Part shown: piece after piece, positions 303 through 31,409 of the stretch
How the letters are laid out: each line of letters begins with the position of its first letter
Numbering within the stretch: position 1 is the first letter of the stretch
NCBI GenBank assembly: GCA_032358255.1
Contig: JAULBX010028127.1
Span: forward strand, 1 to 31,562
Source of the DNA: Heterotrichella gracilis
Lineage: Eukaryota; Sar; Xanthophyceae; Tribonematales; Xanthonemataceae
Direction of reading: 5' to 3'
Length of the DNA: 31,562 nucleotides
Program-made: the position numbers and the translations under genes
The notes under the pieces: model-generated
What the model was told of the DNA's origin: nothing
What the model saw: the letters and a program-made list of their open reading frames with translations, nothing else
Databases searched by the model: none

Positions 303-415
303 AAAGTAATGCAGAGAAATCTGATATTGCTCGAGGTTTTGGACTGCAGGAAATTTCTTATGCGAATATGAAGCACCGGTGCTCTTTTTGCAAGGTGCAT
401 AATGTACAGGGCCTC
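303..415 (-). CDS. PKS exon 31: enoylreductase nucleotide-binding loop (3' end uncertain)
   Basis: After acceptor ACCAG and a 97-nt intron the frame reads GGPVHYAPCKKSTGASYS, aligning with the ER loop aGGVG.yA.q.Ak..GA. The frame stays open to a stop at 300-302, but the true donor is not clear; GCACCG|GTGCTT at about 367 is one candidate. The next exon is not recognisable between here and the LINE fragment at 1-204. GGVG has become GGPV. Confidence 0.62.
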
Positions 416-3400
416 CTGGTGTGCAGGTGGGTTTTTAATCTTTTCTTTACAGCATGTTTGATTGGTTGCACAACAGCTCAGACACTAGCAACAATTGCTC
501 GGTTTGGTCTACCTGCAGATGCATGAATGAGGATGATGTCCTTGGGAGTACAAATTATTGCATCATACAAGCAGGCAATAGCTGTGATGTAGACGGTCGG
601 TACTGTGGAGGCCTCAAGGAAGGTAACATTGCTAGGCAAAGGAGCAATCACTTCTACTGGGGCAATGACAGTGTTGCCAATGCAGCCACTATTCTGTCCA
701 AAAACAGCATCACCAACCCTGCACATGAAAGACCAGTGATGTCATGGAAATATTTATTGCATTCAGCATTACAGCCAGATAAGCAAAGGAAATACAGCCT
801 GGCAGAAGCAGATAACGGTGCACATCCTGGTAATAAAGATGACAACTGAACGCTAGTACGCAGAAATTGCTCTAGGATTCCCGCGTACAATTATCTGGCT
901 AATACATATATTGTACAACACGTGTCTATGTATGGATCAATTCTCCTTGAACATCACTAGGTAGCATGTAACTGTAGCCATGTTCCCAGCGTACAGCGGT
1001 TCTTGGGAATGTGACCGGTTAGCACACAATGGTCTCCTATTCTCTGTAATTGATCAGAGAAGGCAGTACTACGCAGTACCGAAAAGGACTGTCAAAACTG
1101 CCAACACAGTGTATGCATGTTCTCTCATGATTGTTGAGTATTACAGGAATTTTACAGGAATTTTGAGACAGTGTCAGCATGTTTTTGCAATGCAGCATTT
1201 GTGTAAGACAGCCATGTCCATTTGTTTTTCAAAACTAATACATCTGTATACATAAGGATGTAAGTCAACGCAAACAAAGTACTTACTGCATAGTACTTCC
1301 AAGCAGCGAGGGTGACACAATGATTCCAGAAAAATCACTTCCCAATGCCCCAGCATCCCCTGGGTACAACCCTAGCACATTCAGCAGATCTCGAAAGTTG
1401 AGGGCAGCAAATTCCACGCGGATATATGTCAAGCATGCATCTGAAGCCTGTGCATCATAGAGCACAAGCTTGTTGGGGGCTGAAACTGTATGCAACTGAG
1501 GGCCAATAGTGTTCACATATGTCGAAACCACCATCTGTGGAATATATATCGCATTGGCCAACGTCCATTGGTCTGAACCAGCACCCATGCCTAGATCGCA
1601 ATTGTTTTCTACAACAATCTGCAAGGAGTTCGAATATCAAGTTTAGTCAACATATTCTTGTTTCAATCAAGTCCACTTCCTTGCATTTAAGAGAGTATTT
1701 AGCCCAATTGTTGAAGTGTGGCACTAGACGCTTGGCATAAAACATGCGTTAGGTGAACAATGTAAGTAAGGCGAGCATGGGTGAGCATGCAATCTAAATA
1801 TGTCCGTTTTGCTTATTCCTGGGGGGTATGCAAACCATTTTAATAGTATTATGCATCATTTCCGATGTCCAATTGGTACTTGGCATGCGCAACGCAACAA
1901 AAGCGCATGGCAGAACAGGGATATACCTTTGAAATCATTTTGCTATGCGTTTTTGAGAGGAGGGGCAGCCTTTCACAGTAACAAAGCCTGTTCCGTAGTT
2001 CAGCATTAAAGGAGAGCACCATGGCTCTAGCAGTGAATGATGCACTGGCTTCAATGCACTGAATACAATCAGATGGGTCTTCTTGGAGATAAGGTAATTT
2101 TCTTCTTGCAGATTCCAGGTTCAGGCTGAGACGGGACAACAGCAATTTTTCTAGAATGATCCGTTGGAACACAGAAAGTAGAACCATGACAAGGTGCGGG
2201 TGGCTAGAGACATTGTTTGCCTTTATTACAAAAGACATGTTGATAGTATTGTCACGATCATCAGAGTCAATTTGCCGAGGCAGTATCCAATCACAAGCTT
2301 GCCAGCTCAATGCATAACCATATTGACTGTTGCTTTCAGTGCTTGGGCAAAGGGGTGTGTGGTACTTCGATCCACCATTCTGCTTTTCCTGCGCATGTGT
2401 CACAAGTTGACCAGTAAATACAACATGTATGAAAGCATGCAATCATTGTGGACAACTGGTTACAGCAGCTTATTCTAATGGGCCTGAGCAGGTCCGCGTT
2501 AGTTCCATTAGTATTACCAAGTTTCCATACAACACTGGTATGCATTTGACGGGGCCTTAAGCACAATGAAAGTTATTGACAATTGAGACTGCATACTCCA
2601 GGACACTGACAAGGGAGAAATCATGCAATATGCCTGATACAATTCCGCAACTGTATCTTTATAAGTATATCCTTAACACTAATCAATATAATCCTGTCTG
2701 CCTTACCATGCCAAACTACGCATGCAACCCCACCTTGTCGTTTGTTTCTTGTGAGTGTTTCCAAGGCCTGGGATGTATACACTTTAGCGATTTGCACATG
2801 ATTTGGCAGCTGTACCCTGCCAAATGCAGCAGTTTACAAGTGGGCACATCAACTATCCTCTGTCCATTTGTACATTGAGATAAGACAGCCATGGTGGGTG
2901 TGGGGGAACCATCCATCATCTTGGGCACAGCAATGGACTTGGTACAGCAGCCAACATCAATAGGGATTGGCATGCTACGTTGTGGGTGAATTTGGGGGGG
3001 TGCAGCAATCAACATTGATGACGATAAATGGAGCATGCTGTCCATGATCAAGAACAACTGGTGCTTGTTGCAGCATTTGCTATGACCAATTGCCCCTGAA
3101 ATGTACACAGGTGCAGTGGTCCGCCAGGAATATGCCAGACAGTCCGGTTGTTGGCGGAATGTTCTGTGTATTTGGTCAGTGGTCATAGTGGCATAACATA
3201 CAACATGCGCATGCGAGTCTGAGGAGTTTGCACTAGCAATCTCAACTCTGCCATCAAGTGTTTTGAGCTCTACATTCAATGCCTCCTTGCACATGCCAGT
3301 GACTGTGGTCACTTTAGCCTTGATAATTGTAAATGATTGGAGTGAGATATATGAACCTAACCATTCTGTTGAATTTCCGACAACATGCAATAGGTGAAAT

Positions 3401-6400
3401 GACAGATCCAAGAAGAAAGCCATAGGTACAAGGATGGCGTTGCTGACTGAATGATCGACAAGTACATGCATAAGCATAGGTGACAGCACTACTTGAGCAA
3501 TGACAGAAGGTGTCATTAAATTGTTCAATAGTTGATGTTTTGCTGGAATGCAATCTGGTTGGTTGAGCAAAGGCCATACTACTGCAGGGTGGTGTACATA
3601 CGAGCATTGGGAGCTAGATTGGGGTGTATTTGTTGGTAGAGACATTTGTATGAACGCATGCGCGTTTGTCCCAGTCAAGCCCAAAGCACTTGCACCTGCA
3701 GCAGACGCATGCATCATATTCATCTTTTTGCAGTGCATTGGACCGCAGCTGCACATAATAAATACATGTATTGTTATATTGAAGGACTCCAGCATTACAT
3801 AGACAGATCAGCCAGCCTGCTCTGTCAGCCTGGCTGAGAGTAAGCGCCTGTCTGTGCCCTGTCCCAACAGTGCATATGTTTCCCCCGCTGCTATAATGGT
3901 GTCATAGAAATCTGTGCTCAATGAGCAGTTTAATGTCACATATGCTACTGCGTGAAGCCGACGGGCTATAAACGTGGGTCCGCGTGTTTGCAACCGACAG
4001 GTTGCCGGTTTGATCCATCAAGCCTGTCCTCAATTCTCTGTCAATTTCTTCAAACTTGTCAGACGGTTATAGCCCGTGCTGTGCATTATTTGCCCCCTGC
4101 TGCCTACAAGCCTATTACTTAATGTGCGCCAATTTCGTAAAAAAACGTTCTATGTCCAATCCCCGTCTCGAACCGATCCCCAATGCGTACATGCAAGAAC
4201 GCAAGTTGTCGACAAAGTTCAAACAAACCTCATACTCAAAACCACTACAAGTCTACCCGATTGGGATCACTATTGTTATGAAATTGCAAGATGATACTTC
4301 TGTTAGCTGTTTTAGAATAGAATAGAATAATAAAGTACCCGTCGCGCCCCACAGGGACACAGACTACACGCTGGTTTTGCCTCCTTCCTTGGGCGCAGGC
4401 CATCCCAGGGATCAGATCAAAGGGCTTGGGCCAGCCACAACCGAATGTTGACAAATTTGGAAGTCTCACGGTGACAACCATCCGGGAACCCTATCCCAAG
4501 ATGCTGTGTAAGAGAAGCCCACTGGAACATTGTGCGGCACTGGTGCCGGGAACAATGGTGGTGTATACAACGGTATTTAGCGTGGTTCTGAGCCGGTTAG
4601 GATGGGAAGGTTGTTCGCTAATGGTAGGATAAAAAATGAGGGGGGGCAGGGTGTCCTACCTTGATGTGACTTTATAATGAACGCACCAGGGAAATCCCCG
4701 GAAGGGTAGTCTTTAATTTATGTTACTTTACTTCTACATGGGTGCATGACAATGATTGGATGTGGTTGTTACTCTTTACTGTTTGTTCACACATATGGTA
4801 CACCTGCACATGCTGCACCATCAGGTGCTACACTGGGCTCGTATGTCTTTTATATGTGTTCACCATGTTCAATGGGTCTGCCAGTTGGGCTATTGCGTAC
4901 TTTCATCACTTTTTGGAACGACACCCTTCGGGCAGGAACCCCTATAGTTTGACCCCTTCGCGGGACCGCCACATCAGCAGTGAGGGACTGAGAGCACAGC
5001 TTTTGGCTGCCTCCACTGCCTTCCTCCCATAGTGCGGTGCTCTCAGCAGCCTCGCACTCTCGAAAAGGCCCCACAAAAATGCTCACTCTGTTCCCTAAAT
5101 GTGTGTCTGCGGTGCTATTGCTGCTGAATTAAAGTTACCAGCCCCTATTTTTGCCTCGCATTTTATCATAAAGGGTCAGCAGTGAAGCCGTAACAGCTCA
5201 CTGTACAGTTGAAAGAAAGCCTGACCCCCTTATTTTTTTTATTGAAATGTGGGGGTCAGGCTTTCAACTTGCAGCAGGGGTCGAAATAGTGAGCAGGCTC
5301 AAGACGTTTGAACTACACGGAGGAATTAAGAGGATTTATTCTAACCGTTGAGGGTTAGTAAAAGGGGTTCCTGGCTGACCAGTCACGCCTGTCTGACACT
5401 TGCATCGACTGTTTTTGGAGCGCATGGGCCGCTCAACGCGTATATCACAATAATGCTTTGGGGCAGTTTTTAGGGGTATGAAGGGTTGACCATTTTCTGG
5501 TGCAAATTTCGCTGAATGCTATAAAGTGCCAGTGCAAAGATATTTAATTACTAGGACAGAGGACCAATGCCATCTAGGGCACGCCAATGCACATGACATG
5601 CGGGCTCTGCCTGTAACATCTTTTTATTTCACACTAGCATTGCCTCAAATGAATCTATATGTGCCAACTACCAATAAATTACACTGTGCACATAAGATCT
5701 AAGTAGCGCACAAACAAAAGAATGAACTGAAGGCCTGTAGCAAATGCCGCTCTGTAAATATGTGCAGGGCCTTAGAGAATCAAGTTTGCACAACAAATAT
5801 AGGCCAGGATGTGACATATGCCTAGCAAGCTCCAACAGCATGTGCCCCACACATCATTCTAAAATTTTACTACGCATACGCTACATTTAACATACCATAC
5901 CTGCTGCATGTTGGTGACCTGGAAACAAACTAGATGCTGTTTCTCTTGGTATACACCATTCCCATGTGGCATGCACTCGTCTTATCACATCCTTGATGTA
6001 GGGGTTCATGTGACGCAGAGTTTTGAGTGGGTGCATAATGCCATAATTTGTGACGCATGCCAGATGTACTAATGCTGCTGCGCCAGCTGCCCCTTCGGTG
6101 TGTCCCAATAACGATTTACTTGAAGATACGGAGAGGATGCCGTTATTTTCTCTAGGGACACATTTGCAATGGTACTCCAACACTCCATTCAAAGCGTTTA
6201 ATTCTGTGGACGCAGCACGCTTTGTGTCATGTGAAGTTCAAGTAGAGAAGCAGACCCATGTTTTGATGCCAAGTGGAACTTCAATGACAGAACAGTGCTG
6301 AGACCAGATGCTGAGACAGCACTCACCGTGCTGTCAGAAGTAGATGCTCTTGGCCCATTTATTTCCAATACTAATGCATGCACCACCATGGTATGCACGC

Positions 6401-9400
6401 CTGGGGTTATTTACATCAAATACACGTACACAAAAAGGGTTACATAGTACAATGCAACAGGCTTTAATTGACCCACCAATTGGATCCCCTAAAGGTGTTC
6501 CAGTCCCATGCAAGGCAAGATGCCAACTCTTATTTTGACCCCCTCCTGCAGACATTGCTGATATAATAAGCGAGGTTTGGGCCGGACCACTTGGGGCTGT
6601 CATCCCACTAGATCTGCCATCTTGGTTGACAGCTGTGCCCTGCATACCATTTTCCAAAGATGAAAAGTATTTTTACCTTACTGGTGGTTTGTGCCGGCTT
6701 GTAAAAACAACATTAGCCGGGCTGCAAGGTGCAGAAGATAATCAACTTTTACCTGAAGAAGCAGGATAGATGGACTGCATTCACTGTCCCAAACAGTTAG
6801 CAATGTCATTGCACACCCATCACCCCTGCCATATCCATCAGCAGCAGCATCCAAGGACTTGCAACGCCCATCATTGGCTAATGCCTTGAGCTGTGTTATG
6901 CTGTGTGTGGACTGAAGCCGGAGAACAAGATTACATCCTCCAGATAAAGCAGATCTTGTGGTGCAATGAGAAAGGTCTGCATGCATAAATTGTCTAATGA
7001 ATAGGTAAAGCGATGTGCAGGTTGCAAAACAAGTTGATTATGACTTTTGAGACCTTGCAAATGCCGAAATGGGCAAAACCAATGGTTGTGCTTACACAAA
7101 CGCACCTGTCCTTGCAAGATGAAGGGTCACAAGACTGGACGAGCATGCTGTGTCCAGGCCAATAGCTGCACCTTTCAGGTTAAACTGGTATGCTACCCTT
7201 CCACAAGTCATGTGCATTGTGTTCCCCATAATAACTGCTCGAGGAGAAGCGCCTGTGAAGCTGTTTAGGATTCCCAGGTACTCATGGCACCACATAGTGC
7301 CTAAATAAATTGATACGTCGCCTATATCTGCATGGTTTGCTTGCAAAACCTCCTGCAAAGTGCATGGATAGGGGGTATTAAAATATGCATTGCTAAGAGT
7401 GTCTACATATATCATGGCACTTAAACAATGTGCATATATAATTCATTAAGTTTGCAGAGCTTAGTGAACTAAACAACAGTGCCAATTTTCAACTCAGCAA
7501 TTCAGTGCCAAACTTCAGTAACAAGTATATTATGTAAACCAAAAACAACTTCTTGCTCAATATCAAGAAGGCAGATGCCACTCTGTGGCACATGGTGTAA
7601 TTTGCTGTTGCGTGCAATGGTAGGCTTGCAAGGTGGGGAAGTGCATGTTCATAGCTGGAACGCAAACTGGTACAAGCAATAACGCAACAACACTCTGTCA
7701 ATTTGCAACCGTGAACAATGTTACAATATTGCAGGCTTATTGTTGGCATTTGTTTGTCTTTGGTCCTGGCTCCATTGGGGTAATCTTGATGTCTTTTGGG
7801 CAAACGTTTGCAGGTGGAACTGGCGCACTCAAAGTTCATCTAGCATCTGCACAACTGATTTACATCATCCACTTCTGCTACCCTTTCCTCTAGAGGGATT
7901 TGTTTATATAAGGTTATATGTTGTATAAAATCCAGCTACATGCTATGTGATTTTCTTAAAATACTATCATTTGCAAAGCTTGATAATGGAGTGCCGGTGT
8001 TGGGCGAGGGACGAGGATCTGTTCTTGTCAGGTACCCAGGATGAATCTAGGCTTTAAGGATTGCACTTTATTTCTTGCAACGTCAGTCCTTGAGGAAGTA
8101 GTTTGTCATTATGCAGTGTCAATATGTTCAAATTAGATGTTATCATGGCAACGGCTGCAAGTCCCAGGCAATAAGCATATAATCTCCTAATGCATATGGC
8201 GGTATGTGTGGAAACATTATGTGGAAACCTCCTAGACACACAGACTGTTGACCACCATCTCCAGCCAAGCCAGTTGTCAGCAAAAGATGAGGTTCTGCAA
8301 CCATTATGATAGCTTGTTACTCCCTCCTCTCCAGTTTCTATGGGTACGTCTCCGTGCTGCTTTGGAATAGAAAGGTAGTTTATAAACAGGACCGAAAACT
8401 TTCATCTCCAATGGCACCATATGTAGCAAAACGCGGCTGGGAAGGTTTGAAATTTTAGCATCTACAGTCGTCCTCGGTAACACACTGCACGGATACGTAC
8501 TTGTGCACTGATCATTCTGAAACCAGCTAAACGTAAACCACCTGACCATTCTGAAACAACGTCCTTGCTGCTCCTGTCAGATCTACTTTTTACCATTATA
8601 TAAATTGTTGTTTGCCCAGATATGTAGGGCAATCACAGTAAAGAGTAGTTGGGGCTCAACTATTTTGTTGCTCTCTTCTGTCTTGCACTGAAAACCAGTG
8701 ACATATAGTGTATTTATTGTCTTAGTGGTTTGTATGGCACCTGAGACTAGTCGTTTGGCACAACTGTGAAGCTGCATTTCGCACCATTGTGGTTGTCAAG
8801 AACAGCCGGATGTGAGGATCCAACAGCATTGCCTCAATAGCGGGTATAGAAAAAAGAGTTGCATCAAAATGTAGTCCAGTCTGAAGGGGTGAATGGAATC
8901 TGGTTGCTGAACTTTGGGCACTGTTACCCATGAAATGCTCATTGTCAATGTCCCATAGATGTTGTGGCGGGCGAGAGCATGGATCCAGCAATGTACAGTT
9001 TGTGGGTGCAATCTTTTGGGCGCTTTCAAATCCTGCAACAAATTTGGCATGGCATTGAAATATTCTCATTTCATAACACTGTCTGTTACAAAGTTAATGA
9101 CATGCAAATGAACAAACTTTAGCATTAAATTAAGCATTGCTAATATGCCCGCAAAGAATTGCCATGGATTGTGGGACCGAGCTCTGTATTACACGGGTCA
9201 CCAGATGCTGGACACTGCGCTATCCTTGTACGGCCTCAGGCCTGATCTGTATCCAAATCAGCAATGTCAGTCGGGAACTTTTGTGTCAAACCCAGGGCAA
9301 CCTACCAGCCGCATGATGTGGTACATTACACACCACACAGGGTTCGGAACATAGAAAGTACTGCGGTAGTTTACATTTGGAGGGGACAAACACACAGACA

Positions 9401-24400: not shown

Positions 24401-27400
24401 CTGGAACTAGTCCATGAGCGGAAGTCAAAATTTGCTAGTCGAAGTTGGAGTAAGTTGGTGTTTGCAAATTGAGATGGAATTAGTTAGTAAAAGGCAGTCA
24501 GCTTTTTAAAAGGCACTTGGGGCCCATGCACATCTAAGGTGCCTGCTATTCGACAGAATGGGTATGCACATAACATGCCATAGGCATCACGGGGGTGTGC
24601 CTGTGGGAGAGTTGTAGACCCTAAACCCTGAAGTTGACCTTGGCAGATTTTGCGGCATCGGTGGCCAGGTCGAAAAGCAGAACTATCCAGAGCTGAGCAT
24701 AACGCTGCTGTGGCACAGGCAAACACAAGACTGTGATAATTTCAGCATTCAAGTGCATATAAGTGACCATGATTGTAGCCATCAGCGTGGAACAGTGTCC
24801 ACAAATGAAAAAACTCTGAAACAATATCATGCATGAGCATTGTACGGTAGTACATATTACAGACTGGGCAGAAAGGCTTCCCATGCTACCTCAACCCTTG
24901 AGCTGAGATTGATGTATCTGTCTAGGGAGTGTATACGACTTAAATATATGGATAAATATTGGGTACCTAATACAAGGGGTAGACATACGCAAAGGCGTAC
25001 TTGTCTATACCTGACCTGCAAATGGGTTTGAGCTGTTCCTACGGTACTCCTTGCCAAAGTGGGCTTTAGATCTGTAGAAATAATACAAACTTTCATTATA
25101 TTACCTCAACTAATATAGCAGTGAAACCTGATGCAGAGCCGCTAGAATGCATGTAAGTAACTAACTAACAAAAACAATTAATAGCAGTAAACTGATGCCA
25201 GAGTTGGCAATTCCTTGTGTAAAAGGCTCCAAGCCAGGCTCCAAGCCATGCTTGGCTCTAAGGCGTATCAGCTCCATGTATTGATGGCTTGATTGCAGCC
25301 CCGAAGCATGGGATGTGGTAGAAACAAATCCATTAAATGCATGTGCCCATTCCTCTTACAACGTGTTACCTGCATGTAGGGATCGTGCGGAGCGATATGC
25401 AGGCCTGTTAGGTCAGTGAAAACTTCCAACACCTTTGCAAGCACATCCTGGTAGTGGAGTGTGTGCTTGTGCTTAGCGCCGTTTGATGATCTGCCGCTGT
25501 TTGAATGGCTCCCACTGTAATCTGCAACACAACAGTCTTCAATAAGCATGGGATTTGTTTGTTGCCAGTCCCATTTAGAGGTTTTTATTAAATATAGGTT
25601 GCAATATCCATGATTGCTTTCCTTAAAAAAAAAAAAATCTGTAAGCCACATTCCAGCATTTTTTGCCAAAATAACAATCAGTTTTAAAGCAATTGCTCAT
25701 GTGGCGTCAAGCTGGTTTGTCTGTTCATATCATTTGCTAGTCTTGCAAACTTTAGATGTCCTGTTGGGCCAGGTCAGCACATGTGTCCATAGGCTTAACT
25801 ACCCCCTTTGCCCCCTCTACCCTACCAAAAACCATGTGATATGTACATTTATGAACCCGGGCGTCCGGTTCAAGTCCTAAGTGTCCCAGCCGCCTGATCT
25901 CTGTCAATATGTCACTCTGCTTTGTTTTGCCACACAGAGCCCTCCAAAAATTATTCAAAACAATCCTCTAGCCTAACAACCTGAGTTGAGCCTGACTGCC
26001 CCATACAACAGAATATTCGGCACAACCCCACCGAAAGTCCTGCATTTAATGCATAAGCCAAGCCCCTTTTTTGTCACAATGACCATTTGAGCGATGAAAA
26101 CGCAACACCTGGATGGCTATGAAGGTGTGTAACTTTGCAAGGAGTATCATAAAAGTAAAGTAAGAATACTCCCAAACTATCAATCATTTCTGGCACTTCC
26201 ACCTGCTGCCATGAAGTACAATGAACAGCATGTCCTGCACAGTCTTGCTACCACAAGGAGCTTAGTTTCTTGAAGCGCTGATTAATAATGCCCAGATCTG
26301 AACAAGGCTATACTAAGTAGATATAAATAATTTCGCTAAAAGTGTCTTTGTACATCAATTGGCATTTTACTTGGGCTCCTGGGACATATAGCACAATGTT
26401 TACAGCCGGGAGGCCCAGGGTACCAGTTTTATAACATTGTTTTTCTATTTTAAACAAAGTTAGCAGAGTAAACTAATTCAATAAGTATATTTCCTCGTAC
26501 CTTTGTCTTCTGCCAAACATTGTCGTGTGAATCCTGCGTAGTTGTGCCTTCTGGAGTGCAACAGCAAATGTGTGTCCATGTTGCAAACCAAGATGGTGCC
26601 CTTGCTTGCTTGAAAAGTACTCCACAGCATTACGTTTGGCATGCTTGCCACAATGTCTGACAGCAAGTTCAGACCGTCAACTGTAGCTAGTAGACTGAAT
26701 CCTGCAACCAGCGCAAATGTCATAAGTACTCCTTACATTTTATGCTACATACGGAATATGTACATCCCATATGGGAATATGGGAGTTGGCTTACATATAA
26801 CATTGCAAAACAGTCTTTTCTATATGGCTTTTGACAGCCAACTCTGGTGGGATAGAGGGGGCAAAGATGGTAGGTAAGCCAAGGTCCACGTGGGCTGACG
26901 GTGTCCAGCAAGACCCCAAGTCGGGTAAGAACAATAAGTGGCTCAAATAGTGCCGGGATAGGGGCTGCTTGGGCGCCGCATGTGCGAGACTGACTGCTAA
27001 TCTGGCTGTATTTCTGGAATGCATGCAACTAATTGGCTGACTGACTAACAAACACTGGAACTTACTAAGTAACATATGCACTGGAAAGACCAACTCCACA
27101 GGAACGGGACCCCTCAAATGGTCATGGTGCTAAAGAGCTCAAATGCCAGCCTCATGAAGCACAGTGAAAACCAAGATAGATGAAAATATTGTGACCTTTG
27201 TTGACAGTGATACCAGTTTTAATGCGTGTGCTCTTGCCCCCAGACACTATTTACAATACGTGCATGTACATCATTTACATGCCATGGCCGTTATAGGTCT
27301 ACGTGCATGCAAGCACACACCTAAACAAATGCGGCGTTTGTGCCTTGAGACCTGCATTGGATCTCCTTGGCAGGAAGCAACTTATACTCTGGTAGCTAGA

Positions 27401-30400
27401 CATGAAACCAATTGTCAGTGGCTGTGTCGTAGATTTGTAACTGTATCCGCACTTCAACAATGCCGTCAAACTCGGTCGCCCAGGTGTTATACTCAAGTTA
27501 ACGTATTCCATACATTGTAAGGCGGTAATGTGAGTACTCTACGCTGGATCATTTTACCCCCAAAAATACCGTTTGATCCTGGATTGAGCGAATTTTACTG
27601 AGATCTGATGATCCAAGCCTTAAGCAACAATGATGATTGCACTTACTTGGTATTTATGTTGCAAGCATTGGCGTCGATTAAATAGACCATCAGGAAACCT
27701 TTCGAACAAAGGCCTATGTCGCAGCTTTTGGTGGAGGATGTCATCAGTAAGGTAAGACAGTAAGTATGTGCAATTCAGATTAGATCCAAATTAAGATGTC
27801 TGGGTATGCCTCACCCTAGTCTAAGAAGTAAAACATATCAGACAATCTATTGAGTGTGGCAGATGGTGGCGTACCAGTCGTGCCACTTATCGCACATTCG
27901 ACCTACCAATGCTACACTCCCGAAGCAAAGATCAGGGCAAAATTTAAATAAAACCTTTCTCTCAGGGATAGACTTGCAACCCTTTGGTTGGTTGAACTCA
28001 AGACACAATTCAAACTCTAAAAAGTGCTTGACCCAGCCAGCTAGGTGGGTAAACCGGTGTCATAGGTGAACAACAAAACAATAGATACACAGACCACCAA
28101 ACCTGCTAAAAGGTAAACTTAAATATACAAACTCTATACCGTAAAATCAAGTATTAGATTTCATGCTTGCTAGTTAGGTGTCAATGCTGACTGCAAGTTT
28201 TGGTTTATATTTATTGATAGCTTTTGTCTTTTTGAGAGAGACGCTTTACCAGTTTTAGGAGGAGCCAAAGCTTCGCCTTCGTTCTTTAAAATTTAAAACT
28301 TATAACTTGTTCATACCTTGTTTTTGTAGTCCACCCTGTAGCTTCTTTGAAGCAGCCATGCCTTCACCTGACCAAGGACCCCAATTAATACTTATCCAGT
28401 AGCCACCTTTGAGCTACAGGCAAACAAAAGAGAAAGTAATTGCACCGCACAAACCACACAATGCCCTCCTGCAGGAAACCTCAGCAATCATGCAAGGGAG
28501 CCCAACCAGTAACCACGCAACAATGTACATCATCATGCGGAATGTATTTTGGCAAGGACAATGGTATAATTATTGCTTAAGCAAAGTTTCAGTCTGCAGG
28601 TGGCCACACATGTGCATATATGTACACAAGACCGGACTGTTTTGTCGCATAGCCTTTTACATTACACACAAGCAGTCCCCATCTTTGAGCATGTAAACCT
28701 ATAACACTGCAACAAGCCTGATTTAATGCAATATCACTGTAGGTCAACTACAATATGCCAGGAGCCAAAATGAGCATATGGGATTGTGTAGTAGTAAAAT
28801 TGCATGTATGTGAATGCGGAGCTTCATATTGTTACCTGCACGGAAGTCACCTCAGCATCCAATACTTCATTGGCAGCTGCATACCAAGCTTGCCCCGCAA
28901 TGCCCAGTATACTAGAAATAGATGAGAAAGAAACACCAACGTGTGTTGGGTACATTGTCAAAGACGACAGCCGCTGCATTCCAAAGGCTTTACCACCAAA
29001 CACAGCCCAACTATGTTTAAACTGTAGTTTAGCAACTGGTGCATCATGTACCTTGCCAGCCGTGTGGAATGTATTCCTGCCAGCAGGTTGCTCCTGTAAA
29101 AGAAACACCATGAAACCATGTGCAAGTACCTTTAGCGAATCACATGGACCCAGAAGCTGGAAGTAAAAATACAAGTAAAAGTAAAAGATGCTGTGCAACA
29201 TTCATACAACAATTTAAAGACCGGTTTTAAATAATTATGCAGCCCTTGTCTTATAATCTACTGCATTGTTTACTTTGGTTGATGTTATACAACTATGTGT
29301 ACTATGCAACCTGCAAATTTGGCCAGGCAAGCCAAATCAACCAGATCTGCTGTCAAAGCTTGGCCATTCTGAGCAACAAACATCCAACCTTGTATCTATC
29401 CGTACATTTGCATGCCTCACAAGTATCAAACATCTACAAGGCAGATTGAAATTTGACACAATGGCACAGGTCACCTGTTGTATAAGCGCACAACAGCTAG
29501 TTGCGTGTGGTTTCTCCACTTGATAGTGAGTGACACTTAATTAAACTTGCAGTTGCACATGCAGTTGTACATGTATGTATGCCCGTAACACATGTAGTCT
29601 TGCACATTGTGCAAACTTGCGCATACGGGCTCTCATGTGGCATAAAAAGTGCACACAGGTGTAGACGTCAACATACAATTGGTAGAAGTTGGAGTTCTTT
29701 GCGCTGCTAATAACAACGCACCTTGTATCGTAGATCACATGCCTGACTTGATTGGTCGCATGCTGTAGATACATCACCAGATACAAGTTCAGTATGTACA
29801 TGTGCTCCGCGCAAACCTGGATTTCTGTCTTGTTGTCTGGCACAGGATCCTTGTAGTAACAGCTTTCCAGATGCCATGTGGCCTGCCAATCTGTCACATG
29901 ATAGATGCGCAATCAAACATGAGCACAGATGACCCAGGTACCCAAATCCACCTGTGATCATGGTCAGTCTCGCACAAAAGCCAGCGCTGGCATGAGGGGA
30001 AATTAATTCATGTTGGTGTTGACTGTGAGCCTTCTGCAACCTGCGCTTGGGGTGCAAACAATGAGTATGAGTGGAATTATTAGCTGCAAGTAGGTAGATT
30101 CCCCCATACGGATCCCGTAGATATCACCAACGAGCATGTTCAAAGCATTCTTCACATGCCTTTATTTAATTGCCACTCCTGAACCTAACCATAGCAATTA
30201 CAATACGATCAATGGTGGCAGTGATAGAATGATACTTTTACCCATCTTCAATGCACTTCCTCTCTGGTTTGTACCTTGGATGTATCAGAATTGTAGCGGA
30301 GTATACGCAGTTGATGTCCATACCCAATGTGCCGGGCAACGTATCCCTAAAGTCTGCCAGTGCCGAAATGTCTACAAGATTAACCGTGTTTTGCACACCC

Positions 30401-31357
30401 AACTCACATTCAATGCACTTCCATAAACCCCAAATTCCCCCTGATCGCACTCCACTATATGTACCTGGGGTAGTCCCCCCCAAACGTACAGCTCCATATG
30501 TGCGGACACGTATGGCTACTTTAGCCATGATGCTGCACGTCTGTGCCAAACCAGCTATGTTTTGAATAGGCATTGGCACAGCAAAGGCTTGCTTAAGTTG
30601 TATAATGCCGTTTGAGAAGTTCAATGTCGCTTTATCAGTCAAATCAGGAGCTTGTATCCAGTTGCTGCTGCAAGGGAGTGCACGCAACCATTGCAAGGAA
30701 TACAGGAGCTGGGAAGGAATGAGCTTGTTTGCTTTTTGATGCTGAACATTGACTGCCAGTGGTTTTGCACCCAGGAGTATCAATGCGTCCATCTCATCAT
30801 GGCTGTGATACACATTGACATCCGCAAGGTGCGGGCCTTGCAGTAGTGACGTGTCACGAGCAATTGCTGCACTCCAGACCTACACACAAGCACAAGGTTG
30901 AAGAGATGGCAATATTCCTGAAAGCAAAATGACGTATTGGCTACTCTAAAAACGCTGTGACATAGTACATGCAGTGTTACACTAGCAAGAACACACAGCC
31001 CTGAGTCACGAAGACTGGTTAATCTAATACTGAATCTAATGCGTTGAGCTCAGATATAAAGTATTCCACCCAGGAATATGTATTGACATAGCTTCATGTA
31101 GTTTCACAAAGATTGTCGTTGTTAAAAAAATCGAAATGGTAGGTTTGAACAGAAATTGGTGTAATTCTTACTGACATGTATGATTGACGATGATGGACTC
31201 GTACCTTTGTGTATGTGCCCGATTGTTTGTTGCTTGTGCAGACACAACGAAGGGAGACAGGAACTTTGATTGTTATATCTGGTTCTCCACAAAGCAAGGT
31301 TAAATGGGTAGCAGCATCAATTAAGCTTGGATGACGATGAAAACCAGGCAGCAGTTG
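303..31357 (-). CDS. Giant multimodular type I polyketide synthase, AT-less modules (internal part, 31 exons; both ends outside the window)
   Basis: This single gene builds a polyketide by repeated condensation and reduction on carrier-bound intermediates. Its visible domain order is DH-KR-ACP / KS-DH-KR-ACP / KS-DH-ER. The exon chain is 31357-31205, 30879-30275, 30040-29722, 29093-28836, 28413-28317, 26701-26501, 25521-25370, 22318-22082, 21948-21858, 21506-21364, 20401-20158, 17446-17327, 17244-16949, 16842-16458, 14442-14238, 13869-13654, 13337-13120, 12861-12539, 12178-11159, 10912-10678, 9883-9521, 9032-8785, 7352-7106, 6976-6753, 6639-6477, 6203-5901, 3695-2734, 2388-1927, 1618-1287, 718-513 and 415-303. 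Every junction preserves phase, and conserved motifs are restored across junctions, for example the Glu of GDPIE between exons 25 and 26. No AT domain is found after either complete KS. In green algae, giant PKSs with AT activity in trans are known, and Chlamydomonas PKS1 acts in zygospore wall maturation; whether this gene is its counterpart is inference. Exon numbers here count only the visible exons. Confidence 0.93.
513..718 (-). CDS. PKS exon 30: enoylreductase, middle part
   Basis: VGDAVFG, then APLPSNVTFLEASTVPTVYI and TAIACL match the ER consensus (vGDrV.g ... P..l.feeAA.lPt...TA..al). DIILIHASA leads into the nucleotide-binding loop. Acceptor TGTGCAG, donor CTGCAG|GTAGAC, phase 1. 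Confidence 0.9.
719..1286. other. Intron between exons 29 and 30
   Basis: GTAAGT...TGTGCAG, 568 nt, inside the ER. Short direct repeat TTACAGGAATTT near 1142-1160; otherwise nothing. Confidence 0.8.
1287..1618 (-). CDS. PKS exon 29: enoylreductase N-terminal part, module C
   Basis: RVEFAALNFRDLLNVLGLYP followed by GDAGALGSDFSG is the hallmark of the PKS enoylreductase (v.v..aglNfRDv...lG.yPg....G.e.aG). The domain saturates the enoyl group with NADPH. Acceptor CTTGCAG, donor TATGCA|GTAAGT, phase 2, joined to VGDAVFG on exon 30. Confidence 0.92.
1619..1926. other. Intron between exons 28 and 29
   Basis: GTATAT...CTTGCAG, 308 nt. Nothing recognised. Confidence 0.78.
1927..2388 (-). CDS. PKS exon 28: structural ketoreductase subdomain preceding ER, module C
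   Basis: YGYALSWQACDWI is taken as the Y-x-x-W opening of the structural KR half. The rest is poorly conserved, with a Leu/Arg-rich helix (LLLSRLSLNLESARRKL). Its position, DH before and ER after, is the normal place for this subdomain in reducing modules. Acceptor GCGCAG, donor TCAAAG|GTATAT, phase 0. It could also be plain linker. Confidence 0.68.
2389..2733. other. Intron between exons 27 and 28
   Basis: GTGGGG...GCGCAG, 345 nt. Featureless; the donor is the least certain of the interior sites. Confidence 0.6.
2734..3695 (-). CDS. PKS exon 27: end of ketosynthase 2 fused to whole dehydratase, no AT (module C)
   Basis: The exon opens ASALGLTGTNAHAFIQ (KS end). After about 60 residues comes the DH motif DHSVSNAILVP with the catalytic His and again Asn for the usual Gly. 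LFLIMDSMLHLSS has the catalytic Asp of the second hot-dog fold, and SMPIPIDVGC the strand after it. One 962-nt exon thus holds what module B spreads over exons 15-18. Acceptor GCTGCAG is firm. The donor GACAAG|GTGGGG near the 3' end is tentative but keeps phase 0. Confidence 0.9.
3955..4130 (+). mobile_element. Possible second tRNA-derived SINE or small inverted-repeat element
   Basis: TTGCAACCGACAGGTTGCCG followed by GTTTGATCC resembles the T-arm/box B of tRNA-derived SINEs (box B 4007-4016, one mismatch and one missing base). An 11-bp perfect inverted repeat, ACGGGCTATAA at 3961-3971 and TTATAGCCCGT at 4067-4077, surrounds it. A weak relative with CCGGTTCAAGTCC and CTCTGTCAATATGTC lies at about 25855-25920. 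Boundaries are uncertain. Confidence 0.4.
5208..5268. repeat. Imperfect hairpin in the intron between exons 26 and 27
   Basis: Left arm 5208-5229 (GTTGAAAG, bulge AAAG, CCTGACCCCC) pairs with right arm 5251-5268 (GGGGGTCAGGCTTTCAAC). All 18 base pairs are Watson-Crick apart from the 4-nt bulge; the loop is T-rich and 21 nt long. It may be the remains of a palindromic transposable element or a structured intronic RNA. There is no gene or terminator context. Confidence 0.8.
5901..6203 (-). CDS. PKS exon 26: ketosynthase 2, second catalytic histidine
   Basis: Begins by completing Glu (E-LNAL), then SSKSLLGHTEGAAGAAAL with the second His, and RHMNPYI. PRET matches the lPR[EQ] segment. Acceptor TCCACAG, donor GCAGCAG|GTATGG, phase 1. 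A 2.2-kb intron follows. Confidence 0.93.
6477..6639 (-). CDS. PKS exon 25: ketosynthase 2, first catalytic histidine
   Basis: GTAVNQDGRSSGMTAPSG and HGTGTPLGDPI. The exon ends one base into the Glu codon (ATTG|GTGGGT), so unspliced reading appears to replace GDPIE by GDPIG; splicing to exon 26 restores Glu. Acceptor TATGCAG. Confidence 0.92.
6753..6976 (-). CDS. PKS exon 24: ketosynthase 2, central region
   Basis: LSGGCNLVL, NDGRCKSLD and AADGYGRGDGC follow KS consensus. Acceptor GCATGCAG, donor CTTCAG|GTAAAA, phase 0, giving LLLQ-GTAVNQDGR with exon 25. Confidence 0.92.
7106..7352 (-). CDS. PKS exon 23: ketosynthase 2, active-site cysteine exon
   Basis: VSIYLGTMWCHEYL (gvyvG....ey), CGRVAYQFNLKG and DTACSSSL with the nucleophilic Cys. 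Acceptor TTTGCAG, donor GGACAG|GTGCGT, phase 1. Unlike KS1, this exon also includes the segment that KS1 carries on exon 11. Confidence 0.94.
7353..8784. other. 1.4-kb intron between exons 22 and 23
   Basis: GTGCGA...TTTGCAG. I see no mobile element or domain fragment. Open frames such as 8304-8549 show no KS similarity. Confidence 0.75.
8785..9032 (-). CDS. PKS exon 22: ketosynthase 2, N-terminal part (module C)
   Basis: RPPQHLWDIDNEHF corresponds to vP..RWDid; LHFDATLF and LLDPHIRLFL are the FDa.lF and mDPqqRllL blocks. The donor ACAATG|GTGCGA makes TTTM join EVLQ on exon 23, in line with the family pattern ttWevLq. Confidence 0.9.
9033..9520. other. Intron between exons 21 and 22
   Basis: GTATTG...GTTGCAG, 488 nt. 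Nothing recognisable on either strand. Confidence 0.8.
9521..9883 (-). CDS. PKS exon 21: acyl carrier protein (module B) and start of ketosynthase 2
   Basis: FAELGIDSLGNLEI carries the phosphopantetheine Ser; LPVTAMYDYPT follows in the normal position. After a linker of about 45 residues, KAILVKASAMRFP opens the next KS (v.I.g.a.RfP). The exon ends CTCAAG|GTATTG, phase 1, completing a Gly with exon 22. Confidence 0.92.
9884..10677. other. Intron between exons 20 and 21
   Basis: GTAAGA...TGTGCAG, 794 nt. A frame over 10215-10538 is open but exons 20 and 21 join in phase across the first ACP helix without it. An ACATGTTTCATG-type AT-rich stretch is otherwise featureless. Confidence 0.8.
10678..10912 (-). 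CDS. PKS exon 20: end of ketoreductase and start of ACP, module B
   Basis: IQWGPWKLLGMAS is the KR C-terminal motif; HPVHGLSIFANF is the helix after it. The last residues (LDVEMLMKQG) are the first ACP helix, continued by MVADITRQ on exon 21. Acceptor GTTCAG; donor CAGG|GTAAGA, phase 1. Confidence 0.88.
11159..12178 (-). CDS. PKS exon 19: structural plus catalytic ketoreductase, module B (longest exon, 340 codons)
   Basis: The exon opens with YQIVW, the start of the structural KR half. The catalytic half has VSGGFSGIGRA (NADPH loop, T to S in TGG), HIFLLGRNAR, FIHAAGVTSDGAF, Lys in MPVKISA, Ser in FSSFSAPLG and Tyr/Asn in NYSCANAVMDA, so the catalytic set is complete. Module A spreads the same region over exons 2-4. 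A 26-bp tandem repeat at 12071-12122 lies in the structural half and is needed to keep the frame open. Acceptor CCTGCAG, donor AAGACA|GTAAGT, phase 0. Confidence 0.92.
12071..12122. repeat. 26-bp tandem duplication inside KR exon 19
   Basis: GGGCAAACCTCTCGCTTTCT plus GGTGA is repeated head to tail at 12071-12096 and 12097-12122 (last base differs). The unit is not a multiple of three, so the two copies are read in different frames (minus strand ESERFAP, then HQKARGLP). The exon stays open only with both copies present. Confidence 0.95.
12179..12538. other. Intron between exons 18 and 19
   Basis: GTAAGT...CCTGCAG, 360 nt. No repeat or coding segment seen. Confidence 0.8.
12539..12861 (-). CDS. 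PKS exon 18: dehydratase C-terminal half and linker, module B
   Basis: CKVDACIHLAAM has the catalytic Asp in DxxxH, and FIPMQVAASF is the [IL]P strand that follows. About 80 residues of Ser/Thr/Gln-rich linker come after it. Acceptor GTTCAG, donor AACAAA|GTAAGT, phase 0. Confidence 0.86.
13120..13337 (-). CDS. PKS exon 17: dehydratase middle part, module B
   Basis: LITIMFDHTTGEMALKT matches the DH strand pair that ends the first hot-dog fold, followed by a Ser/Asn-rich inter-fold linker. Acceptor CACTCAG, donor ACATCAG|GTAATG, phase 2 in and phase 1 out. Confidence 0.83.
13375..13580 (-). mobile_element. tRNA-derived SINE, copy 1 (head missing)
   Basis: Body shared with the other copies: AGTATGCCTGGGTAAGCCTC, GGTCCAAGAGGCAAG and GTGTGGCAGATGGT on the plus strand. 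The promoter-bearing head is absent, as expected for a 5'-truncated insertion. It fills most of the 316-nt intron between DH exons 16 and 17. Confidence 0.68.
13654..13869 (-). CDS. PKS exon 16: dehydratase N-terminal hot-dog half (module B)
   Basis: EHAINNRSIIPAASHLLM is the DH HxxxGxxxxP motif with the catalytic His; the usual Gly is Asn here. The acceptor ATTCCTAG is one of two copies created by a 90-bp local duplication; only this copy opens into the DH frame. Donor CCGCAG|GTAAGA, phase 2. Confidence 0.88.
13841..14020. repeat. 90-bp tandem duplication spanning the acceptor of DH exon 16
   Basis: 13841-13930 and 13931-14020 are near-identical; each contains CTACTGCTGCTGGCATGTTG and AAACAAAACCTAGGAATG. 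On the minus strand each copy supplies branch region, ATTCCTAG acceptor and the first 29 nt of the exon. The upstream copy runs into a stop soon after and is a decoy. Confidence 0.92.
13870..14237. other. Intron between exons 15 and 16
   Basis: GTGCGC...CCTAG, 368 nt, half of it the 90-bp duplication. Nothing else recognised. Confidence 0.8.
14238..14442 (-). CDS. PKS exon 15: end of ketosynthase 1 and KS-DH linker without AT
   Basis: GANAFGMSGVNGHVLLQ is the KS end (g.ssFG.sGtNaHv). The roughly 50 residues that follow contain TWMFPYLK and lead directly into the DH of exon 16. There is no room for an AT of about 300 residues and no GHSxG motif of an AT. Donor AGCAG|GTGCGC, phase 2. Confidence 0.9.
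14545..14911 (+). mobile_element. Terminal-inverted-repeat element (MITE-like), copy 1
   Basis: A 367-bp AT-rich element with no coding capacity. Its core (GAGCTTGCCAAATGA, CATGTGGTTGGGTGTGGC) recurs in inverted orientation at 20578-20985. The ends read TAGGTTTTCACAATACG and, on the other strand, TAGCGATTCATGATACG, an imperfect terminal inverted repeat. Both ends start at TA, which could reflect a TA target site. It lies in the same intron as the LINE remnant. Confidence 0.72.
15030..16350 (-). mobile_element. Decayed LINE-type (non-LTR) retrotransposon, reverse transcriptase remnant
   Basis: Read in order on the minus strand: FEEVKVAVEQL, GVDGIVAEQLEAGG, GVVPAEWKQAVLVPLFK, CDDYRGISL, NRGTADALFTL, NLAKAYDSVDRD, TGCVLAPSLFNF, YEDGI, KVGFLISVPKTTI and VVLTTLLYRGDSWA. 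This is the finger, palm and thumb order of a LINE reverse transcriptase. It is dead: motif A has Asn for the first catalytic Asp, YADD has become YEDG, two stop codons interrupt the 5' part (after VEQLKNNK and VPLFK) and there is a frameshift near 15765. No endonuclease is visible, so the copy is 5'-truncated. It sits in the intron between KS exons 14 and 15, in the sense orientation. Edges are approximate. Confidence 0.88.
16458..16842 (-). CDS. PKS exon 14: ketosynthase 1, both catalytic histidines
   Basis: HGTGTVLGDPIETGA and SKSSVGHSEGAAG carry the two His residues of the KS Cys-His-His triad. TTNPFVSSI and LPRQ are the expected C-terminal marks. Acceptor TTTGCAG; donor TCAG|GTAAGA, phase 1. 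The following intron contains a LINE remnant. Confidence 0.94.
16949..17244 (-). CDS. PKS exon 13: ketosynthase 1, central region
   Basis: VGGVNLML, DGRCKTFDTSADGYGRGE and NEDGRSSSLTAPSG appear in the order and spacing normal for type I KS domains. Acceptor TCTGCAG, donor CAATAT|GTAAGC, phase 0 out. The acceptor choice yields SQSSSIVGGVN, which fits the family. Confidence 0.93.
17327..17446 (-). CDS. PKS exon 12: ketosynthase 1, active-site cysteine exon
   Basis: A 120-nt exon containing CGRISFTFNLRGPS and then DTACSSSL, with the nucleophilic Cys that accepts the growing chain. It is flanked by TTTGCAG and AGAG|GTATGG, phase 1 on both sides. Confidence 0.94.
17447..20157. other. 2.7-kb intron between exons 11 and 12, with SINE copy 2
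   Basis: GTAAGT...TTTGCAG. Besides the SINE, a tRNA T-arm-like CCTGGGCTTCAATTCCAGG near 18717-18735 hints at another decayed tRNA-derived insertion. The rest, including the T-rich 19330-19620, is unexplained. Confidence 0.78.
18100..18425 (-). mobile_element. tRNA-derived SINE, copy 2 (best preserved)
   Basis: On the minus strand it carries a box A-like TTAACTCAGCACCTGAG (18398-18382) and a perfect box B GGTTCGAATCC (18341-18331), spaced as in a tRNA. The unrelated body contains the family core TATGCCTCACCCCAGTCC (plus strand, near 18175) and the tail ends in CTTACTTTTACG-like sequence. It is in the intron between exons 11 and 12, sense to the PKS. Confidence 0.78.
20158..20401 (-). CDS. PKS exon 11: ketosynthase 1, FDA/MDPQ region
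   Basis: VEMFDAQLF, GMDPQIRFLLKDAL and MGVYIGCMFYDY match the KS signatures FDa.lF, mDPqqRllLE.a and gVyiG....dY. Acceptor TCTGCAG, donor AACCG|GTAAGT, phase 1 out. A 2.7-kb intron follows. Confidence 0.92.
20402..21363. other. Intron between exons 10 and 11, with inverted-repeat element copy 2
   Basis: GTAATG...TCTGCAG, 962 nt. About 400 nt is the terminal-inverted-repeat element; an ACACACAAAGAG short duplication lies near 21200-21230. Confidence 0.8.
20578..20985 (-). mobile_element. Terminal-inverted-repeat element (MITE-like), copy 2, inverted relative to copy 1
   Basis: About 408 bp; the reverse complement aligns along its length with 14545-14911, with short indels. The ends read GGGGATCCATGATACG and, on the other strand, TAGGGATTCACAATATG. 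It lies in the intron between exons 10 and 11. Confidence 0.72.
21364..21506 (-). CDS. PKS exon 10: ketosynthase 1, N-terminal part
   Basis: CKVPLDRWDSDTIYS is the KS consensus vP..RWd.d. The exon ends FGVFLK at AAG|GTAATG, and exon 11 continues with GVEMFDAQLF, an exact fit to the KS segment fG.Fl.gv..FDa.lF. Phase 1 in, phase 0 out. Confidence 0.9.
21858..21948 (-). CDS. PKS exon 9: start of ketosynthase 1 (module B)
   Basis: A 91-nt exon after acceptor TCTGTAG with no long frame of its own. SISAIACSTASM aligns with the KS opening (.iaI.g.acR.Pg), though the usual RFPG is not kept. It enters at phase 0 and exits at phase 1 (CAAACAG|GTAGGG), joining exon 10 to give QTGALSDV. Confidence 0.72.
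22082..22318 (-). CDS. PKS exon 8: acyl carrier protein, phosphopantetheine half (module A), and linker
   Basis: The exon begins AGMDSMEVSQY; the Ser of GMDSM is the 4'-phosphopantetheine attachment site. LPATAIFDYAT is the conserved helix III region of ACPs. After it comes a Gln/His-rich intermodular linker. The start after AATGCAG gives the continuous ACP sequence PYMQ-AGMDS with exon 7. The donor is a GC type (GCCAG|GCAAGT), supported by phase and by the KS start on exon 9. Confidence 0.87.
22319..25369. other. 3.05-kb intron splitting the module A ACP, with SINE copy 3
   Basis: GTAACA...AATGCAG. Holds the SINE at 23195-23455 and a 17-T run at 23858-23874, which on the gene strand is an A-run and could be the tail of an older retroposed sequence. 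The rest is unexplained; none of its open frames resembles a PKS segment. Confidence 0.75.
23195..23455 (-). mobile_element. tRNA-derived SINE, copy 3
   Basis: Shares the body with 18100-18425: GCATGCCTGGGTATGCCTC and GGCAGATGGTGGCCAACCAG on the plus strand, in the same order. The head region with CCACCCAGCCAT is present but box B has decayed. Located in the 3-kb intron that splits the module A ACP. Confidence 0.7.
25370..25521 (-). CDS. PKS exon 7: acyl carrier protein, N-terminal half (module A)
   Basis: A Ser/Asn/His-rich linker is followed by VLAKVLEVFTDLTGLHIAP and then HDPYMQ, the first ACP helix and the loop before the phosphopantetheine site (v..v.......dp.m). The exon ends at CATGCAG|GTAACA in phase 0. 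The carrier Ser lies on exon 8, about 3.05 kb away. Confidence 0.83.
25522..26500. other. Intron between exons 6 and 7
   Basis: GTACGA...GTTGCAG, 979 nt. Contains a 13-A run at 25625-25637 and a weak tRNA-like piece near 25855-25920. No coding signal. Confidence 0.75.
26501..26701 (-). CDS. PKS exon 6: end of KR and linker to ACP, module A
   Basis: The exon starts after GTTGCAG in phase 1 and ends at ACAAAG|GTACGA in phase 1. DGLNLLSDIVASMPNVML fits the helix after the KR WGPW segment (gl..l...l....p.v). The remainder, rich in His and Arg, is linker towards the carrier protein. The assignment rests on phase and position more than on a sharp motif. Confidence 0.75.
26702..28316. other. Intron between exons 5 and 6, with SINE copy 4
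   Basis: GTATGA...GTTGCAG, 1615 nt. Holds the SINE at 27740-28065 and a 9-bp inverted repeat (GAGTTGGCT 26783-26791, AGCCAACTC 26836-26844). No PKS exon is expected because exons 5 and 6 join within the KR C-terminus. Confidence 0.8.
27740..28065 (-). mobile_element. tRNA-derived SINE, copy 4
   Basis: Shares the body core (CTGGGTATGCCTCACCCTAG) and the head: minus-strand GAGTTTGAATTGTGTCTTGA matches copy 2 closely. Box B is degenerate (GGGTTGCAAGTCTATCC). In the intron between exons 5 and 6. Confidence 0.7.
28317..28413 (-). CDS. PKS exon 5: small ketoreductase exon with WGPW motif, module A
   Basis: This 97-nt exon has no ATG-initiated frame of its own and was recovered from motif continuity. 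INWGPWSGEGMAAS matches the KR C-terminal consensus s[IV].WGpW...GMA. It joins exon 4 at phase 0 after CCTGTAG and exits at phase 1 (AACAAG|GTATGA). The split Gly codon is completed by exon 6. Confidence 0.88.
28414..28835. other. Intron between exons 4 and 5
   Basis: GTAACA...CCTGTAG, 422 nt. Nothing recognisable. Confidence 0.8.
28836..29093 (-). CDS. PKS exon 4: ketoreductase catalytic core, module A
   Basis: The exon of 86 codons, phase 0 to 0, contains FHTAGKVHDAP (the H[TS]AG segment), Lys in GGKAFG, the catalytic Ser in SFSSISS and Tyr plus Asn in WYAAANEVLDA. The K-S-Y-N set of an active short-chain-dehydrogenase-type KR is therefore complete. The acceptor is TTTTACAG and the donor is GTGCAG|GTAACA; the rival donor GCTGAG|GTGACT lies 12 nt upstream. 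Confidence 0.9.
29094..29721. other. Intron between exons 3 and 4
   Basis: GTGCGT...TTTACAG, 628 nt, inside the KR. Contains simple ACATGTA-rich sequence near 29550-29600 but no recognisable element. Confidence 0.8.
29722..30040 (-). CDS. PKS exon 3: ketoreductase NADPH-binding region, module A
   Basis: Enters at phase 2 and leaves at phase 0 (ACAAG|GTGCGT). The Rossmann motif TMITGGFGYLG matches the PKS KR consensus TGGxGxLG for NADPH binding. ELVSGDVS downstream is the conserved GDV segment. The residues before the motif form a Q/H-rich linker. The domain reduces the beta-keto group after condensation. Confidence 0.88.
30275..30879 (-). CDS. PKS exon 2: end of DH and structural (pseudo) subdomain of KR, module A
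   Basis: The exon enters at phase 0 after TGTGTAG (VWSAAIARD, end of the DH) and leaves at phase 2 (CCAAG|GTACAA). About 60 residues in, LLYSLQWLRAL is the typical Y-x-x-x-W start of the structural half of a PKS ketoreductase. GGIWGLWKCIECEL near residue 150 matches the wGl.r....E.p strand of that half. The structural half has no active site; it stabilises the catalytic half encoded by exons 3-6. Confidence 0.85.
30880..31204. other. Intron between exons 1 and 2
   Basis: GTACGA...TGTGTAG, 325 nt. No repeat or coding segment seen. Confidence 0.8.
31205..31357 (-). CDS. PKS exon 1: dehydratase, C-terminal hot-dog half (module A)
   Basis: The exon of 51 codons begins after acceptor TTTTCAG and ends at donor AAAG|GTACGA, phase 0 on both sides. 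It carries HPSLIDAATHL, the DH motif DxxxH with the catalytic Asp of the second hot-dog fold, and then KVPVSLR, which matches the usual [IL]Pv strand that follows. The N-terminal DH half with the catalytic His must lie upstream of the window. Confidence 0.85.
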
Positions 31358-31409
31358 CTGAAAACACATAGATTTGTTAATGGTCATGGTTTTTTTTTAG
31401 TATGGGGAT

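Follow-up and report, generated by a model that had tools for sequence, protein, structure and literature searches.

Type I PKSs have been reported from nine of 12 chlorophytes, where AT-less forms predominate; almost all of the non-iterative algal enzymes are described as lacking an integrated AT, and the multimodular ones include proteins of MDa size (Shelest et al. 2015, PMC4661987). The available text of that survey thus supports a statement made in an earlier reading of the DNA considered here, drawn from its letters alone (the sequence-only reading), that giant chlorophyte PKSs with displaced ATs exist. The PKS1 of Chlamydomonas reinhardtii (Heimerl et al. 2018) is likewise presented as AT-less, highly reducing and giant (PMC7073580, PMC12633428, PMC6972661). 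In Chlorella vulgaris, the giant AT-less PKS/FAS g276 is accompanied by two MCATs, and the second, cytosolic one has been proposed to act in trans and compensate for the missing AT (PMC6972661). Bacterial trans-AT PKSs, too, have modules devoid of an AT and depend on a discrete one, and structures of their KS domains retain the KS-AT linker subdomain (reviewed in PMC11907408).

The DNA analyzed here, referred to as the window, is the whole of contig C561 (31,562 bp), open at both ends, from an assembly of 68.5 Mb in 903 contigs. Very probably it holds an internal part of a second AT-less giant chlorophyte PKS, most likely loaded in trans. We label this PKS as PKS2, and use PKS1 for its paralogue on contig C44, which is distinct from the Chlamydomonas PKS1. 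Because AT-less MDa PKSs have already been described in chlorophytes, PKS2 is not new in kind: with the enzymes described by Shelest et al. it shares a multimodular, AT-less arrangement of KS, DH, ER, KR and ACP, MDa-size proteins, and the presence of more than one PKS per genome, as in several of their species, and it differs from them in its low GC and very short exons (PMC4661987). What the window adds is a second AT-less giant PKS within one green alga.

Spliced alignment and Pfam searches revealed highly reducing PKS modules on the minus strand of the window, roughly two and a half in number. The domain order can be read directly from the DNA and is, from 5' to 3' and from high to low coordinates, DH(end)-KR-ACP, KS_b-DH-KR-ACP, KS_a-DH-ER, and the contig end. 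The upstream module opens with the C-terminal part of a DH carrying the motif HPSLIDAATH (31172..31366; spliced alignment to a PKS1 module, with PF14765 below cut-off at E=0.0013 on 31097-31396). A KR in several exons follows (28317..30741), which includes the structural part, TGGFGYLG and FSSISSILGIAGQAWYAAAN; PF08659 was found there at E=3.2e-13 on 28827-29201, and the spliced score of this stretch was 288 vs 94-117 on the other strand. The module closes with an ACP (AGMDSM; 22169..25447) whose exons, 25370-25447 and 22169-22318, are separated by a long intron, and which was recognized by spliced alignment and by PF00550 just over the cut-off (E=2.6e-4 on 22013-22435).

The middle module begins with KS_b (14393..21453), spliced from six exons (21364-21453, 20158-20401, 17327-17446, 16949-17244, 16458-16842 and 14393-14442), some of them matching PF00109, with PF02801 at E=1.3e-17 on 16339-16944. 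It runs without an intervening AT into a DH (EHAINNRSIIP and VDACIHLA; 12535..13880), where the spliced score was 276 vs 64-82 on the other strand and PF21089 stayed below cut-off (E=0.046). A tandem duplication with a unit of about 90 bp lies at 13840-14008 and overlaps the start of this DH exon. Next come a structural part and KR (VSGGFSGIG, QTNYSCAN and IQWGPW; 10567..12178; spliced alignment, and PF08659 at E=4.3e-17 on 11078-12232) and an ACP (GIDSL; 9690..9883; spliced alignment, and PF00550 at E=2.6e-8 on 9483-9905). In the last module, KS_a (3646..8967) comprises exons at 8785-8967, 7106-7352, 6753-6976, 6477-6639, 5957-6203 and 3646-3748, plus doubtful ones at 5901-5903 and 5593-5610, and was placed by spliced alignment, with PF00109 on two exons (E=1.3e-12 and 2.2e-11). 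The KS-DH junction and the DH after it (DHSVSNAILVP and MDSMLH; 2719..3657) share a single open frame, where neither PF21089 (E=0.0017) nor PF16197 (E=0.0024) reached its cut-off. An ER with exons at 1287-1440 and 511-718 (511..1440), aligned to one PKS1 module, heads to the contig end.

Template-guided splicing replaced a Viterbi gene finder that had been trained on C44 and was unsuited to the low-GC window. Aligned to a paralogous KS, KS_b gave six exons, 395 aa, 45% identity and a score of 641, and KS_a gave eight exons, 396 aa, 37% identity and a score of 555, one 3-bp exon of the latter being surely an artefact of the aligner; controls scored 69 (plus strand), 56-71 (10 resampled sequences) and 73 (reversed template). 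Both KS domains are spliced from GT-AG exons and keep DTACSSS, HGTGT.LGDPI and GH.EGAAG, so that Cys-His-His is intact, and PF00109 exceeded its cut-off in five window exons. The description of these KS domains as complete stands for the catalytic core only, because the alignment does not cover the initial 39-40 template residues. Of the PKS domains in the window, KS, KR and ACP had exons with Pfam matches over cut-off. DH was sub-threshold at all three places (E=0.0013, 0.0017 and 0.046), and a Pfam search of single exons gave no match for ER; the DH and ER calls therefore depend on spliced alignment with the paralogous PKS, in which the ER stretch scored 249 with one PKS1 module, against at most 95 with 11 other modules and 56-77 on the other strand. 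Across alignments the window yielded 43 to 48 spliced pieces, many of the short ones doubtful, a count that agrees with the previous estimate of at least 31 exons. Judging from their arrangement in the DNA, the modules are likely parts of one gene encoding one continuous protein.

An AT occupies 290 positions in TIGR00128 and so requires about 870 bp. The distance from the end of KS_b (14405) to the DH His (about 13823) is 582 bp, and that from the end of KS_a (3658) to the DH His (about 3453) is about 205 bp, inside a single open frame at 2719-3807; as the DNA itself makes plain, neither window junction has room for an AT. An AT profile built from 59 bacterial cis-AT PKS domains (threshold E<=5) had no match in 1332 window ORFs, nor in 3325, 1281 and 1191 ORFs from the examined stretches of C44, C355 and C348 (5797 in total), and recovered five ORFs of C104 and seven of C290. 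A smaller AT search returned a single row after KS_a, at 1.7 bits and E=5.8. Spliced AT templates scored 73-88 on the coding strand of the window and 64-81 on the other strand, compared with 212 to 611 at true AT loci, self-comparison excluded; on a 30-kb part of C44 they scored 110-123, above the window's values (a score without a null), and the AT profile found nothing in that part. These results bear out the proposal that two KS domains run into DH without an AT and, together with the spliced domains, that this is an intron-rich eukaryotic PKS with AT-less modules. AT domains in further modules would have spoken against that proposal, and the AT profile found none in the stretches of C44, C355 and C348 covered. 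With several modules that carry tailoring domains and ACP, presumably within one gene, and with no integrated AT in its visible part, PKS2 resembles a chlorophyte trans-AT multimodular type I PKS.

The larger AT-less PKS on C44 (33-110 kb, minus strand; L014-L021) has 12 KS and a terminal thioesterase. KS and DH exceed their Pfam cut-offs within one open frame without an AT twice in this paralogue (L015:6573-8348 and L016:7691-8674), and in modules with a pattern-detected DH the distance from KS end to DH motif is 181-581 bp in five C44 modules and 612 bp in one C348 module. The stretches of C355 and C348 that were examined hold two KS each, of the same low-GC type as the window (GC 0.44 for the window-type PKS vs 0.50 for C44); these four are counted here with PKS2, of whose gene they may be part. 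Cys-His-His is kept in 18 of 18 algal KS, including all six of PKS2; two of the 18 escaped the third motif pattern, and their residues were read directly from the alignment. An ACP end and the start of the next KS apparently share one frame on C348 (48417-48836, by eye), and two ACP motifs and a KS exon do so on C44 (43527-45041), indicating that at these places, at least, a single chain links the modules.

Among the PKS contigs, thioesterase (PF00975) was found on C44 only, and a TE domain is thus common to this paralogue and the Chlamydomonas PKS1, as the latter is described (PMC7073580, PMC12633428, PMC6972661). Unlike the Chlamydomonas enzyme as portrayed in these sources, the C44 PKS has two methyltransferase stretches (103-106 kb), a domain that most algal trans-AT PKSs are reported to lack (PMC4661987), and no adenylation domain (PF00501) was found on PKS contigs among the 13 of 42 candidates that were scored. 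The sequence-only reading considered that the window might correspond to the algal zygospore-wall PKS or represent a distinct pathway; the more complete PKS on C44 is more likely to be that counterpart, and the window would be a second, faster-evolving PKS. More KS-family matches occur on C429, C199 and C463, with GC of 0.53-0.54 in the stretches examined, and these are perhaps type II fatty-acid ketosynthases. A single type I KS relative was also seen on L128, an IMG/VR contig classed as viral.

Genome-wide searching uncovered two stand-alone, intron-split ATs, on C104 and C290 (TIGR00128 at E<=10, exon by exon; matches below the whole-protein cut-off). The idea that a stand-alone AT lies elsewhere in this genome thereby holds, with two candidates rather than one, either of which might be the proposed loader of every extender unit. 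They align over eight exons in C290 and five in C104, with 146 of 292 aligned residues identical between both, and they keep GLSLGE, Arg and GAFHT, whose Ser, Arg and His we take to be the catalytic residues of FabD. The C290 AT is preceded by a transit-peptide-like stretch (by eye) and looks like a plastid fatty-acid enzyme, which leaves C104 as the best candidate loader. In the C104 gene (48638-51806, minus strand; L040, L042 and L127), an AT exon is extended on its upstream side by a charged stretch, which a GC-AG intron (CAG/GCAAGT) can connect to ankyrin-like exons (PF13637 E=4e-5, over cut-off). This AT appears to be fused in frame to ankyrin repeats, a reading of DNA rather than of a transcript, for which the gene finder picked a different donor; an ankyrin fusion is not mentioned for the Chlorella vulgaris MCAT in the available text of PMC6972661.

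A single-exon family search of the genome with PF00698 gave one match, on C1, and missed both algal AT genes. The C1 AT, although the strongest match in the genome, was set aside as not algal: its neighbors, by eye, are rpsT and alanine dehydrogenase, which gives the contig a bacterial look, presumably Bacteroidota-like. The two best PF00109 matches, on C442 and C111, were rejected as well, these FabF-like frames having RNase III and rimP as neighbors (by eye). These bacterial-looking contigs, C1, C442 and C111, sit within an algal assembly and could mislead annotation.

The KS-DH junctions were also compared with bacterial linkers. A KS-AT linker profile was positive in six of six held-out cis loci and five of six AT-less bacterial loci, and in none of seven algal post-KS frames, KS_a included (one frame is only 38 residues long); the succession of KS and KS-AT linker, which we used to assign bacterial trans-AT PKSs, was accordingly not found in these seven frames. 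The bacterial post-AT linker YPFQRxRYW lies 330-520 residues past KS in 57 of 64 cis loci by a looser search, adopted in place of a stricter pattern with 0 of 69 matches. In nine of 11 algal junctions a Trp stands 24-33 residues past KS, a count reached in none of 5000 shuffle sets, and in places it sits within IRFHHQRYW or VTVRERFW, resembling the post-AT linker. The summed post-AT profile score of the 11 junctions exceeded all 2000 shuffle sets; the Trp window of 24-33 was chosen after the sequences had been seen, and the profile test was not confined to it.

The 11 junctions were kept by eye, as those in which the frame runs on, from 16 KS ends found by pattern; those dropped as entering an intron were C44 37324, 97332 and 42717, C355 18946 and C348 52227. 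The frame after C44 37324 is actually open for 148 residues, and four junctions that are long enough were later restored. With all 15, the Trp count was nine (equalled or exceeded in one of 5000 shuffle sets) and the profile sum was reached in none of 2000; the four restored junctions alone did no better than shuffles. Taken singly, p<0.05 was obtained in only five of the 11 junctions, one of them (C44 53121) at a different place, and in only five of nine does the Trp coincide with the best profile match. Both window junctions carry the Trp, and neither passes the profile test (p 0.086 and 0.87). From these patterns we infer a likely joint loss of AT and KS-AT linker domain, after which KS was followed directly by what remained of the post-AT linker. 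A bacterial AT-less module, L084 (a Magnetococcales MAG), has RSFQRQRHW 15 residues past KS with the linker domain not found, so short linker-less junctions are not unique to algae. Neither linker-domain loss nor a post-AT relic is discussed in the available text of PMC4661987. A search of the openly accessible literature, which does not extend to subscription papers such as Heimerl 2018, listed no paper joining a chlorophyte PKS with the KS-AT linker and none on an ankyrin-fused AT in a chlorophyte PKS context.

A KS phylogeny, which the sequence-only reading had proposed as a check, was built against bacterial KS from 61 rows, including 41 of 80 bacterial loci picked by similarity to algal KS. 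The 18 algal KS formed one clade (100/99) apart from the 41 bacterial KS, six AT-less ones among them; the algal rows come from this genome only, the classical bacterial trans-AT clade may be missing from the sample, and the bootstrap was not fully settled. Modules of PKS1 and PKS2 are intermixed in two subclades of the algal clade (starred in the tree), and several PKS2 KS branches are long, at 1.1 to 2.8 changes per site. The algal modules differ from those of bacterial trans-AT PKSs, as these are reviewed in PMC11907408, in the linker subdomain, which was not found in them, and, within this sample, in their separate KS clade.

PKS2 would be a giant, non-iterative, highly reducing type I PKS. 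Because an AT is absent from every module seen, malonyl units would most likely reach its ACPs via a free-standing malonyl-CoA:ACP transacylase, and we infer the ankyrin-fused AT of C104 as the candidate loader. Each module would perform condensation on KS, reduction on KR and dehydration on DH before the chain is handed to the next KS, and the last module seen would add an extra reduction on ER. The modules probably descended from cis-AT modules, the AT and the KS-AT linker domain having been lost jointly with the post-AT relic left before DH. By analogy with the Chlamydomonas PKS1, the product is perhaps a wall or resting-stage lipid. A fuller scenario would have chlorophyte AT-less modules in general derive from cis-AT ancestors by joint loss of AT and linker, be loaded by a transacylase docking through its ankyrin repeats, and form a eukaryotic trans-AT system that arose independently of the bacterial one; it is tentative and, taken whole, rather doubtful. 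The junction scar offers a testable reading of AT displacement in algae that can be searched for in every chlorophyte PKS, and a specific gene can be named as candidate loader. Should the absence of the linker domain prove real, AT recruitment in algal PKSs would have to differ from that in bacteria, a point of relevance to PKS engineering.

Other explanations were weighed against loading in trans of a working AT-less enzyme. PKS2 might be a decaying pseudogene, given its low GC, a transposon insertion, long branches and weak DH and ER similarity, but both window KS align without a stop or frameshift where a neutral copy that had diverged would be expected to show stops and lost motifs, and with Cys-His-His in six of six PKS2 KS and KR and ACP motifs also kept, we regard decay as unlikely. 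Very unlikely, in our view, is a single cis-acting AT in an unseen terminal part of PKS2 that supplies every module in the manner of haptophyte "semi-trans" PKSs, whose megasynthases are described with one N-terminal AT each (PMC7073580). The PKS2 gene does run off both contig ends, and a divergent, split AT could escape a search in which the best candidates alone were scored; yet the genome-wide AT searches, among those candidates, pointed only to C1, C104 and C290, three contigs without PKS matches, and the profile found no AT in the examined stretches of C44, C355 and C348.

Gene transfer from bacterial trans-AT PKSs could in principle account for the AT-less architecture, since such assembly lines are common in bacteria and discrete-AT logic is common to both. 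We consider this highly improbable in view of the separate algal KS clade, which in a similarity-picked sample excludes even the six AT-less bacterial KS, and of algal junctions without the linker domain that five of six AT-less bacterial loci keep, L084 being the one that also lacks it. Least credible of all, to the point of being negligible, is that the KS-DH junctions conceal AT exons overlooked by frame-based searches: the exons are short, single-exon profiles are weak and the first AT search did overlook both algal AT genes, but the gaps fall well short of the length of an AT, and the spliced AT scores of the coding strand lie beside those of the opposite strand rather than in the range of true AT loci.

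The host is a chlorophyte alga as judged from two light-harvesting proteins: the best matches of CP26-like and LHCA3-like exons were green-algal photosystem chains (7pi0, 6kac and 8bd3, which we take to be from Dunaliella, Chlamydomonas and Chlorella, respectively). An intron of KS_b contains a LINE reverse-transcriptase fragment (15112..16145, minus strand) that is not part of the PKS, with PF00078 just below cut-off (E=3.2e-6 on 15735-16136). A genome search with it gave 50 rows, counting the fragment itself, with relatives on C355, C348 and C131 among them; as C131 bears both a related LINE and a light-harvesting gene, the window can be assigned to the alga. Several LINE copies sit at contig ends, suggesting that this repeat probably breaks the assembly. 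Dispersed repeats also lie at both ends of the window (31382-31562 and 1-291), of which one has a counterpart in C429 at 96% identity and the other has relatives in C355 and C348.
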